64,000 nucleotides of DNA from contig VRMN01000004.1 in NCBI GenBank assembly GCA_008690995.1, positions 1,178,001 to 1,242,000 of the forward strand, read 5' to 3'. The notes under the pieces are model-generated. The model was given only the letters and a program-made list of their open reading frames with translations. It ran no database searches and was not told where the DNA came from. Shown here piece after piece: positions 29,261 through 34,273 of the stretch. The DNA is from Porphyridium purpureum (Eukaryota > Rhodophyta > Bangiophyceae > Porphyridiales > Porphyridiaceae). The position numbers and the translations under genes were made by a program. How positions within the stretch are numbered: position 1 is the stretch's first letter; each line of letters starts with the position of its first letter.

Positions 29261-29690
29261 GTCGTCTTCTAGAGGGCACAAGGACCCGAATGCCGTGGGG
29301 CAGAACTTTGTGCGCGTCACGTTCGAGGACGAGCGCGTGCTCATGCTCACGGCAAACCACCTTGCGTACGTAAACAGTGCGCTGGTGCCAGCTTGCGACA
29401 TCCGTGCCGGTATGCTGATGACGGATGCTGAGGCTGGGCGTGAGATCCGCGTGAAGTCTGTGGAGTTTACCATGCGCGCCAAGGGGCTGTACATGCCGCA
29501 TACGGCGCACGGTGACCTAGTGGTGGATGGCATTGTGGTGTCGTCGTACGCGTCCGTGGCACCGCGCAGAGCGCACGCGCTGCTGCTGATTGAGCGCGTG
29601 GTTCGTGCGGTTTGCTTTTCTGCGCTGGGTAATTTGCTGGAGAAGAAGACGCCGTGGTTGCTCGAGCGCGCCATGTCTGTGGTAGCATAG
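29261..29690 (+). pseudogene. 5'-truncated copy of the Hint/Hog gene at 31043-31981
   Basis: Homology to the intact gene begins abruptly at 29261 (matching 31553) and runs through the same stop. It lacks the signal peptide, the Cys-rich domain and the catalytic Cys block of the Hint fold. Over the 396 nt from 29295 to the stop I count 8 substitutions (about 98% identity): four change amino acids (Tyr to Cys, Glu to Lys, Met to Arg, Gly to Cys, relative to the intact gene) and three or so are silent. One extra base near 29271 shifts the very start. The frame stays open but has no ATG in frame at its beginning. The homology continues into the 3' flank to about 29885, where similarity falls. Confidence 0.85.
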
Positions 29691-31042
29691 GGCATCGGGC
29701 ATGAGGCACCGGTCGTCGGGGACCGGTCGTCTGGAACAGGTCGTCGGGGACAGGTCGTCGGGTATCGGGGATCGAAAGGAGGAGATGTGAAGGAGGTGCG
29801 CAGAATGTCTTGAGTGGAGAGTCGTAGGTGGTGCGGTGCCACTCGCCCTCTGCCCATGTGCAGAACACGCGTGTGGTGAAGCGGACCGTTCTGTCGCAAT
29901 CTGCTGGCCTGCCGCTCGCACGCCACGCAGCCGCGACATCGCGTTGTATTGACTCTTTGCACACTGCGGCTGTACCGTGGCCGTGGCGAAGTGCGACAGA
30001 AACGGATGGAAGAGAATACCTGCTGTTCCACTTTTCGAGTGAAATGATCCATCCTCTACTAAAGAGGACACAGCTTCGGTGAAGAAGCAACGTTGCTGGC
30101 AACCGGAACGGAAAGGCACGTCGCTGAACTTAACGCAGGCCTACAGCTTCAGAATTGGTCGCGATTTCCTTGCGCTTATGCGCCGCGCAGATTTGCATAG
30201 CCGAAGATGCGCTTCGACACAGACACGCACCAATTGGACAAAACGGGCTAGTCAACGGTGTCCAAAGCTGACGCGGTAATGTTCTTGAGCTTCCGTTTCG
30301 TCTGCTGCTGCTGGTGCTGTGTCTGCCGTTAACCTCCGTTAGACCCAAAATGGGCCCAAAGTGGTTGGCTCAGTTGCTTTGCATGGACGCCATAACCCAA
30401 GCACTCCGTACCAAGCCGAATACCTCCCAGCAAAGGTCCAAATTACCATGCGGCACCGGCGCCGCATCTGGTTTTCCATCACGCTGCGAGGTCTTGGACC
30501 ATAACTATCGGCACGGAGTCGGGTGCCGCTGAAATGCTTCCACGTCGCCTGAGTTCGTGTACTGTACGTGCAGATGCCACATAGAGTGGTCATCATGCCC
30601 TTCCACACCGCACTAATCCCCAATGCACCAAGGCCAACGCGGGCCTAACCTGCTCGCGCGTGCTCCGCGTGTTCGTCACACTCCCAAGTACAGTGCGCGG
30701 TACACGCCACAAGCCCGTTTGCTTCGAAACGATTTCATTGGAAAAAGAATGGAGTGATTCAAATCTATCTGTTTATGAGGGACCTTGCGAACCCCGATGA
30801 GCTCGACTGGTGTAATTCACAGCGGGAACGTGGATCCTGTAGATACTCCGAGCAGATTCGGCGCCAGTCGGATGCAGATCAACAGACACATACTAAACAG
30901 ATGCGCAGATGCACGGAGAAAGGGGGGCGGAGCGGGCGAGGAAGAGTGGCAAGGGGAGATAGTTCTGGCGTAGGAAAGGGGCTGCCTTGTTGGTATTGTC
31001 GTTGTCGTCTTCCTCTTCTGTGGGTAAGCAGCCAAAGCGGAG
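29691..31042. other. 1.35-kb gene-poor stretch between Hint copies
   Basis: The first ~195 bp are the diverged 3' flank shared with the intact Hint gene. The rest holds no recognisable gene. ACTGTAC at 30561-30567 and GTACAGT at 30688-30694 lie upstream of the intact Hint gene. Antisense frames at 29258-30119 are shadows of the Hint copy and its flank. Confidence 0.45.
29708..29763 (+). repeat. 14-bp minisatellite, four units
   Basis: Units at 29708, 29722, 29736 and 29750 follow AC(C/A)GGTCGTCGGGG with small variations. The homologous position after the intact Hint gene (~31996-32010) has only one such unit. Confidence 0.85.
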
Positions 31043-31981
31043 ATGACGAAGGTGGGCACGCCGGCGCTGCTGGTGGCGGTGGCTGCCGCGGTGATGGCCG
31101 CGACGTTCCTGCGCGTCGATGCCCAATCGCTGAGGCTCTGTGTGTACGAGGATGCGTCGTGCTCAGAGCGCGAGTCGTGCCGGGATTTTTCGAACGGCTG
31201 TCAGAACGTGGACGGGACCCCCGTGTCGATTCGCTCGGAGATTGATTGCACCGAGACAGACGGCATGGTGGAATTCTCAACACTCATACTTGAGATTTGG
31301 GAAAATAGCAAGGACTGCCCTAGTGATGTGACACCCGTGGACTTCTCGCTCCCGGGGACAAACATCACAGAAAATACATGCTATGTTGACGAAGAGGCTG
31401 GTTCGTACAGGGTCACAAACGTCAATTGCGGTGGCGGAGACTGCTTCCCGGCTTTCGCACGGGTACAACTGGAGGACGGATCCCGCAAAGCTATGCATGA
31501 GATCAACATTGGCGACATGGTCAAGGTGTCAGCCACAGATAACTACAGCCCGGTCGTCTTCTGGGGGCACAAGGACCCGAATGCCGTGGGGCAGAACTTT
31601 GTGCGCGTCACGTTCGAGGACGAGCGCGTGCTCATGCTCACGGCAAACCACCTTGCGTACGTAAACAGTGCGCTGGTGCCAGCTTACGACATCCGTGCCG
31701 GTATGCTGATGACGGATGCTGAGGCTGGGCGTGAGATCCGCGTGGAGTCTGTGGAGTTTACCATGCGCGCCAAGGGGCTGTACATGCCGCATACGGCGCA
31801 CGGTGACCTAGTGGTGGATGGCATTGTGGTATCGTCGTACGCGTCCGTGGCACCGCGCATGGCGCACGCGCTGCTGCTGATTGAGCGCGTGGTTCGTGCG
31901 GTGGGCTTTTCTGCGCTGGGCAATTTGCTGGAGAAGAAGACGCCGTGGTTGCTCGAGCGCGCCATGTCTGTGGTAGCATAG
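31043..31981 (+). CDS. Secreted Cys-rich protein with C-terminal Hedgehog-type Hint (Hog) domain
   Basis: 312 residues from an ATG at 31043. A signal peptide (1-~28, cleavage near VDAQS) is followed by a Cys-rich domain (~30-130, with Cys at 33, 40, 46, 53, 69, 92, 113, 129). The Hint domain starts at Cys134 in GGGDCFPAFARVQLEDGSRK, very like the GGCFP start of Hedgehog autoprocessing domains, then has INIGDMVKV, the T-x-x-H motif in MLTANHLAYV (Thr200, His203), and TAHGDLVVDGIVVSSYAS, equivalent to Hedgehog 'TxHGTxVxDxVxASCYA' with Ser265 in place of that last Cys. Hint domains cleave themselves and join the N-terminal part to a nucleophile. This predicts a secreted, self-processing protein; cleavage and the partner are unproven. 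Confidence 0.9.
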   Translation: MTKVGTPALLVAVAAAVMAATFLRVDAQSLRLCVYEDASCSERESCRDFSNGCQNVDGTPVSIRSEIDCTETDGMVEFSTLILEIWENSKDCPSDVTPVDFSLPGTNITENTCYVDEEAGSYRVTNVNCGGGDCFPAFARVQLEDGSRKAMHEINIGDMVKVSATDNYSPVVFWGHKDPNAVGQNFVRVTFEDERVLMLTANHLAYVNSALVPAYDIRAGMLMTDAEAGREIRVESVEFTMRAKGLYMPHTAHGDLVVDGIVVSSYASVAPRMAHALLLIERVVRAVGFSALGNLLEKKTPWLLERAMSVVA

Positions 31982-32191: not shown

Positions 32192-32231
<40 letters not shown>

Positions 32232-33304: not shown

Positions 33305-34273
33305 ATGGCACGGCTCGGGTACACGGCCATTGGAGCGCCGCCGCTACTCGCCTCTGGGCAGGAGCAACGCCTGGAAGAACGTGGCGGCTCCCGCGTGCGA
33401 ACTGCAGCATGGATGGCTCTGGCTCTAGTAGCGGTCTACGGGGTTGGAGTGCTATGCTCAATGTCAGGACCGATTGCCCCGGTCATGGAGCATTCACGAC
33501 CGGGACTTGCGCCGGAGGTACGCGATACAGCCAAGGAGACGAATAAGGTGATGAATATGACGGTAGTCTTGGCCGCGTTTGAGCCTTTCGGGAATTTCTC
33601 GATAAACCCGGCCCAGAACGTGAGCAAGATACTGGACGGCAAGTGCATTGATTCGATATGTTTCCGAGCGATGTCGATTCCCGTGAACCACGCAGGCGTA
33701 CAGATGGTACCCAATATGCTCATACATACGCAAGACCTCCCACACGCGGTGATTCACCTGGGGCTCGATGCATCGGCTCATGATGTCATGGTGGAAATCG
33801 TGGCCGCGAACGTCGCTGCCATTGACGGCGACAAGGGCAAGCTTGAAACTAGCCAGGTCGTGACTGAGGCTTCTCATGGCGCGTTCTTTCGTGAAATTGC
33901 GCCCGGGTTTGGTCTAAGCTACCTTCTTCCAACAACGGCTGATCTTGCGCAGCTGTACATGGATTTTTCGCAGCCTCGAACCAGAGCCGCGGGGTCTGTA
34001 CATGCCACATCTTTTGCACGCTTTCAGGAACATGAGATGCGAGTTGCCTTCTCACGTGATCTCGGGGCGTTCTTTTGCAACGAGGCTTATTTTCGTACGC
34101 TATTTGCCGTTCATCAAGCGAAACTTCGCGTTGAGAGCGTCTCGTGCGCCCACACGCAGAGGCTTCTCCCAGTGCTCTTCGTTCATTTACCGCTTTTGAG
34201 CACCATTGGCGCCGAAGATGCAAGCACAGTGGTGGCAAAAATAGCCAGGAGTATTTTATTGGTATCGCCTTGA
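33305..34273 (+). CDS. Pyroglutamyl-peptidase I-like protein with N-terminal membrane anchor
   Basis: 322 residues from an ATG at 33305. A hydrophobic helix (~35-52) follows a short tail, so it is probably a type II membrane or secretory protein, unlike the cytosolic ~215-residue bacterial enzyme. The C15 fold starts near 85: VVLAAFEPFGNFSINPAQNVSKIL matches 'VLVTGFEPFGxxxxNPS'. Candidate triad residues are Glu164 (VMVEIVAANVA, aligning with TPERVAIN), Cys258 (DLGAFFCNEAYF) and His294 (PVLFVHLPLL). The Gly-Gly-Arg of 'GxxGGR' is missing (HLGLDASAHD) and Cys-His spacing is 36 instead of ~24. Removal of N-terminal pyroglutamate is the family reaction; activity here is uncertain. Confidence 0.75.
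   Translation: MARLGYTAIGAPPLLASGQEQRLEERGGSRVRTAAWMALALVAVYGVGVLCSMSGPIAPVMEHSRPGLAPEVRDTAKETNKVMNMTVVLAAFEPFGNFSINPAQNVSKILDGKCIDSICFRAMSIPVNHAGVQMVPNMLIHTQDLPHAVIHLGLDASAHDVMVEIVAANVAAIDGDKGKLETSQVVTEASHGAFFREIAPGFGLSYLLPTTADLAQLYMDFSQPRTRAAGSVHATSFARFQEHEMRVAFSRDLGAFFCNEAYFRTLFAVHQAKLRVESVSCAHTQRLLPVLFVHLPLLSTIGAEDASTVVAKIARSILLVSP

Follow-up and report, generated by a model that had tools for sequence, protein, structure and literature searches.

The window analysed here is a 64,000-nucleotide stretch of the red alga Porphyridium purpureum (assembly GCA_008690995.1, contig VRMN01000004.1, positions 1,178,001 to 1,242,000, forward strand). It carries an intronless gene for a protein with a Hog domain, the Hint-type autoprocessing domain of Hedgehog (Hh) proteins (Table 1). 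The open reading frame (ORF) is uninterrupted from ATG to stop and encodes 312 amino acids, with a hydrophobic N-terminus, a domain of exactly eight Cys, a Hint domain beginning at Cys134 and a tail. The preliminary description of this DNA had proposed the arrangement for a probable red alga. We found the ORF, Cys134, Thr200, His203, the eight Cys and Ser265 (VSSYA in place of ASCYA) as described, and P. purpureum belongs to the Rhodophyta. The hydropathy of the N-terminus is signal-peptide-like, and cleavage would fall near VDA/QS.

Membership of this protein in the Hog family is practically beyond doubt. The profile search proposed in the preliminary description matched Pfam family PF01079 at 89.9 bits (cut-off 29.7), and the Hint domain of Drosophila Hh matched at E 4.4e-8 (single-sequence phmmer). 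The expected likeness to Drosophila Hog was borne out by sequence and predicted structure: chain 6tyy, Drosophila Hh D303H (D46H), was the first match by phmmer and by Foldseek, and was tied with wild-type 1at0 by VIA-align. Of the features of a Hog protein (Buerglin 2008), PF01079 above cut-off, Cys1 and the TxxH motif are present, the C-terminal SRR/ARR with its helix motif is recognisable in part (His275 and Arg282 retained, Pro replaced, in a tail modelled with low confidence), and a secretion signal is suggested by hydropathy. The nearest paralogue is 62% identical across residues 9-311. Compared with paralogue L002, the Hog part (149/179 residues identical) showed low non-synonymous substitution (dN 0.10) against synonymous substitution (dS 0.85). 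For this one gene pair, therefore, the reading frame is under purifying selection.

The window protein is not isolated. PF01079 matched at least 33 places in the genome, and 28/33 were kept as apparently intact proteins, meaning an open frame with Cys1 and without a stop, defined without intron models. Five were left out of residue counts: the fragment within the window (L037), a pair of pieces from a single C18 copy, L045 (without Cys1 and without the TxxH His), and L034 (C12), whose Hog protein is identical to that of L033 (C1) through recent duplication or a doubled contig. All 28 proteins had a hydrophobic stretch after Met within the first 160 residues of the frame (12-residue mean hydropathy at least 2.17). 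Median pairwise identity among the 28 was 37%.

We aligned these 28 proteins with five proteins from outside Porphyridium (P0003, P0004, P0005, P0008 and P0010) and Drosophila Hh. At the column of the Hedgehog general base, Asp303, we observed His in 28/28 genome proteins and 5/5 outside proteins. The register is firm because the alignment to Drosophila Hh is gap-free from Tyr168-Ser169 to this column. The preliminary description had correctly listed the first-step residues; it had missed this second-step position, His176, and a partial sterol recognition region (SRR) motif (His275, Arg282). Only 5/134 Hint columns were invariant in the 33 algal and outside sequences: Cys134, Phe135, His176, His203 and Val258. 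Hint starts were chosen by 'CF', which accounts in part for Cys134 and Phe135 being invariant; His176 and His203 were not individually required, the loci script accepting any His located 35-80 residues beyond the Cys.

Other active-site columns varied more. The TxxH His was present in 28/28, with Ser (19), Thr (8) or Ala (1) at the Thr column. The Hedgehog Cys400 column held Cys in 12, Ser in 11 (the window protein among them), Thr in 3, Ala in 1 and Val in 1, so that Cys was replaced in 16/28. Residue -1 was Gly in 0/28 and Asp in 6/28 (L002, L004, L006, L013, L033 and the window protein), and Asp also in 3/5 outside proteins. Leu242 and Leu348 of human SHH lie near the active site in simulation (PMC7906309); their columns were Gly in 25/28 and His in 26/28, respectively. 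The H-P-R motif of the SHH SRR helix (same source) was retained in part (His 22/28, Pro 13/28, Arg 25/28). An algal profile (A5) was built from 17/28 Hog domains. Its alignment with Hh and SHH extended into the SRR of both, and with this profile the D46H chain reached 90.9 bits, against 84.8 for wild-type 1at0.

Among the excluded copies, the base column was His in the window fragment and in L045, and Asp in a piece of the C18 copy, which is broken across two frames (L046, C18:207500-210700). Beyond Porphyridium, His was seen in the five outside proteins, from protein searches giving 5, 4 and 2 rows, the second among the best 7,992 candidates; no red-algal Hog protein named in print was among these rows. 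Residues 1083-1177 of a bacterial Hint chain, 8w20, also have His at the aligned base column.

The Hog domains follow very different N-terminal regions. A Pfam N-domain scored above cut-off in 10/28 proteins (Table 1) and in none of the other 18, the window protein included. Four carbonic-anhydrase places were found in the genome; L011 is the one known Hog fusion, the other three not being at a Hint match, and L011 is possibly a self-tagged extracellular carbonic anhydrase of the alga. In a FastTree of Hog domains, L011 was sister to one pentapeptide Hog (support 0.987), a pairing that an exchange of cargo would lead one to expect. In 8/28, though not in the window protein, Pro+Thr made up at least 30% of the 40 residues preceding Cys1. 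L013:1411-2193 has almost no cargo: a signal-like start and a brief segment that closes with a run of Pro/Thr precede a Hog domain that begins at residue 67 of the Met-started frame.

The N-domain of the window protein has the Cys spacing C-x6-C-x5-C-x6-C-x15-C-x22-C-x20-C-x15-C. It is not a Hedgehog signalling domain, as had been proposed: no HH_signal match was found in the protein (E up to 10). The preliminary description had also called the domain new. Neither Pfam nor NCBIfam gave a match above cut-off, and the PDB gave none that was convincing; the domain is not unique, however. Among eight hand-chosen proteins (five from the Porphyridium genome, three from outside), 7/8 shared the eight-Cys order, differing slightly in spacing (window protein, L002, L004, L006, L033, P0003 and P0004), whereas P0005 had six Cys. 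The domain is predicted to be all-beta with modest confidence (predicted local distance difference test, pLDDT, 71.9 from five sequences) and matched no known fold; a model of this kind does not establish that the fold is new. Compared with the closest paralogue, 28/104 N-domain residues were identical (dN 0.81, dS saturated), against 149/179 in the Hog part. In this comparison the cargo changes much faster than Hog, as Buerglin remarked for haptophyte Hog proteins (PMC2362128).

Table 1. Features of the window gene, its truncated copy and Hog fusions elsewhere in the genome (window positions unless a locus is given).
Feature	Position or locus	Strand	Basis or remark
Whole Hog gene	31043..31981	+	312 codons + stop, no intron
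Signal-peptide-like N-terminus, residues 1-27	31043..31123	+	mean hydropathy 2.74 across 12 residues
Eight-Cys N-domain, residues 28-133, predicted all-beta	31124..31441	+	Cys count and spacing, structure prediction
Predicted scissile junction Asp133-Cys134	31439..31444	+	aligned to Hedgehog Gly257-Cys258
Hint domain, residues 134-267	31442..31843	+	Pfam, structure search, profile alignment
His176 (codon CAC)	31568..31570	+	column of Drosophila Hh Asp303 (D46), general base
TANH motif, Thr200-His203	31640..31651	+	matches Hedgehog Thr326/His329
His250 of P-H-T	31790..31792	+	column of human SHH Leu348, near active site
Ser265	31835..31837	+	column of Hedgehog Cys400
SRR-like C-terminal tail, residues 268-312	31844..31978	+	His275 and Arg282 of H-P-R motif; Pro column is Ile280
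5'-truncated copy of the gene's 3' half, pseudogene fragment	29261..29726	+	96.4% identity over 466 bases
Trypsin-Hog	L007, L008, L021, L026, weaker L042		Pfam
M14 (zinc) carboxypeptidase-Hog	L044:472-2748		Pfam
Carbonic anhydrase-Hog, public name 'Carbonic anhydrase'	L011:1405-3063 (C11:1068 kb)	-	Pfam
Pentapeptide-repeat Hog	L039, L040		Pfam
DUF305-Hog	L028		Pfam

The truncated copy lies 2.3 kb upstream of the Hog gene. Its DNA similarity starts at about codon 171 and its protein identity at Gly175; a match to the 3' flank extends further, at 29750-29884. The codon changes comprise four non-synonymous and three synonymous ones. Just 3' of the Hog gene is a GT microsatellite (32194-32229), and a further ORF at 33305-34273 (+) matches pyroglutamyl peptidase in part (E 2.3e-10).

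On balance, and with moderate confidence, we favour the reading of a secreted non-Hedgehog Hog protein that would form a thioester and then transfer its N-domain as an ester with the aid of His176. The protein would enter the secretory pathway, and the Hint domain would turn the peptide bond between Asp133 and Cys134 into a thioester via Cys134, Thr200 and His203; we judge self-cleavage highly likely. His176, replacing Asp303 of Hedgehog, would activate an alcohol offered by the SRR-like tail, and this alcohol would receive the eight-Cys domain as an ester. Transfer to an alcohol is, in our estimate, reasonably probable. The likeliest alcohol would be a sterol, a tentative assignment. The 28 paralogues may use the same device to attach one kind of anchor to widely differing secreted cargo.

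Mutants of Drosophila Hh bear on the role of His176. The D303A protein retained thiol-induced cleavage and did not reach full cholesteroylation, while D303H retained its structure and cholesterol activity and gained activity on coprostanol and epicoprostanol (PMC9163320). Because D303H is active in Drosophila, the algal His would be workable as a base by established chemistry. With respect to the acceptor, red algae are strong cholesterol makers (PMC8172173; no sterol profile of Porphyridium itself was found), and the genome has matches to cyclase, sterol methyltransferase and Patched/sterol-sensing families. Two Patched-type places, L047 (C24) and L048 (C44), had equal scores and were non-identical over the 3456 bases fetched.

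Several points weigh against this reading. Secretion, cleavage, transfer and the nature of the alcohol are deduced from sequence. Residue -1 is Asp, where Hedgehog has Gly, and this position is variable across the family. Ser occupies the Cys400 column, where mutations in Drosophila inhibit both steps (PMC4695875). The tail is short and poorly predicted, with pLDDT blocks falling from 67 to 37. The C18 pseudogene, with Asp at the base column, departs from a strict His rule, and His outside Porphyridium comes from five proteins only. The sterol-gene matches are silent on Hog and are a weak point for a sterol acceptor because such proteins have other sterol roles; given the sterol methyltransferase, cholesterol need not be the main sterol. 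Finally, the Gly and His at the columns of SHH Leu242 and Leu348 could mean another alcohol.

These two replacements would fit an acceptor alcohol other than a sterol, for example a glycerolipid, a glycolipid or a hydroxyl group in the sulphated mucilage, by which cargo would be tied to membrane or matrix. The tolerance of D303H for other sterols (PMC9163320) points the same way, as does the use for nematode tails of the term adduct, not sterol, recognition region, the adduct there being unknown (PMC2362128). The partly retained SRR helix motif and the cholesterol output of red algae argue for a sterol instead, and we regard a non-sterol acceptor as somewhat unlikely. A broader alternative, which we consider doubtful, is that red-algal Hog domains stand apart as a catalytic lineage of their own, with two His (176 and 250), instead of Asp and Leu, lining the thioester site. 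Such a lineage would serve general C-terminal tagging of a secreted set (proteases, carbonic anhydrase, repeat proteins) with a non-cholesterol adduct. Since 8w20 also has His at this column, His is perhaps ancestral, with Asp having arisen as a novelty in animals.

Asp at residue -1 promotes hydrolysis in inteins, which makes plain release a serious rival for Hog proteins with this residue. The protein would then be a self-cleaving propeptide: the thioester would be hydrolysed and the cargo freed with a free C-terminus, with Hog aiding maturation or folding and attaching no tag. The Asp at -1 in the window protein, five paralogues and three outside relatives is consistent with this, as is the frequent replacement of Cys400. 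Hydrolysis, however, needs neither the invariant His at the base column nor the partly kept SRR motif, and overall we judge it unlikely.

An unreactive Hint domain, acting as a binding or structural module, would accommodate the departures from Hedgehog at both Cys400 and Asp303, but it is very improbable given that Cys1 (in part through the CF choice) and both active-site His are invariant at such low pairwise identity and that D303H is still active in Drosophila. Inteins end in a C-terminal His-Asn followed by Cys, Ser or Thr and a C-extein. We rejected an intein or bacterial intein-like domain because the Hedgehog Hint was best by sequence and structure and the splice end is absent, the Hint domain ending VVSSYASV with no C-terminal His-Asn. 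As to a viral origin, nothing was confirmed in IMG/VR with A2 or P0006 as query. As to a bacterial origin, nothing was confirmed in prokaryote genomes with the carbonic-anhydrase Hog (P0009) as query; a single-protein query reaches close relatives only, 2/6 of the P0009 patterns lay in the Hog part, and distant prokaryotic relatives are possible.

Hall et al. in 1997 are said to have reported His in some nematode sequences, and we do not claim a first natural case. In the literature, within the portions covered of sources including PMC9163320, PMC13060885, PMC7906309, PMC4695875, PMC2362128 and PMC1636047, no mention of a naturally occurring His at D303 was found; the words histidine, D303 and catalytic are absent from the main text of PMC2362128, taken without its alignment figures. 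Judged by titles and the starts of abstracts, with partial coverage, no statement on Porphyridium Hog proteins or on trypsin-Hog or carbonic-anhydrase-Hog fusions was found. Red-algal Hog proteins with the motif J Cys replaced have been in print since 2008.

The family may reveal how the protein-tagging reaction of Hedgehog proceeds in organisms other than animals. A single unicellular alga supplies 28 natural substrates, some of which carry familiar enzymes as cargo (trypsin, carboxypeptidase, carbonic anhydrase), and its His is a natural form of the base swap that chemists designed. Mass spectrometry could thus test directly whether a non-animal Hog uses an alcohol and, if so, which one. Activity of the cargo enzymes would be easy to follow in the zinc carboxypeptidase-Hog (L044) and the trypsin-Hog proteins (L007, L008, L021 and L026). 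The algal domains may also have a wider substrate range for protein tagging.

We compared the algal protein with known Hog systems. Like the autoprocessing domains of Drosophila Hh (1at0) and human SHH, it has the Hint fold, Cys1, TxxH and, in part, the first-helix motif of the SRR. It differs in having His for Asp303, His for SHH Leu348, Ser for Cys400, a residue other than Gly at -1 and a non-Hedgehog N-domain. On its predicted sequence it lacks two marks of a bona fide Hedgehog, the HH_signal N-domain and the general base Asp303. No HH_signal was found in the genome, where absence is not shown by this search, which gave no match in control genomes either. Nematode warthog and groundhog proteins likewise carry Hog behind N-domains unrelated to Hedgehog, with an adduct that is unknown (PMC1636047 and PMC2362128); these Hedgehog-related proteins are animal, unlike the algal family.

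Among red algae, non-Hh Hog proteins were described from Chondrus, Porphyra, Gracilaria and Griffithsia (Buerglin 2008, PMC2362128). They resemble the algal protein studied here in that the motif J Cys is replaced by Ser, Thr or Asp. A difference is that the upstream regions of the Porphyra proteins had no match in other organisms in that study. The Kelch + Hog genes of Cyanidiophyceae are, as in Porphyridium, multi-copy with foreign N-domains (PMC9812998 and PMC13353863). Their cargo is kelch and trefoil and their location subtelomeric, whereas Porphyridium has trypsin, M14, carbonic anhydrase, pentapeptide, DUF305 and the eight-Cys domain. In Cyanidiales, a Thr/Pro/Ala-rich peptide lies between kelch and Hint (PMC9812998), comparable to the Pro/Thr-rich stretch before some Porphyridium Hog domains. 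Hint-domain genes are also reported in large number from the diatom Pleurosigma (PMC12803021). The closest counterpart of the base column is the 'general base swap' of Drosophila Hh D303H (6tyy), with His at the same position. That protein is an engineered single change in an animal domain, whereas the algal His is natural, family-wide and accompanied by further active-site differences.
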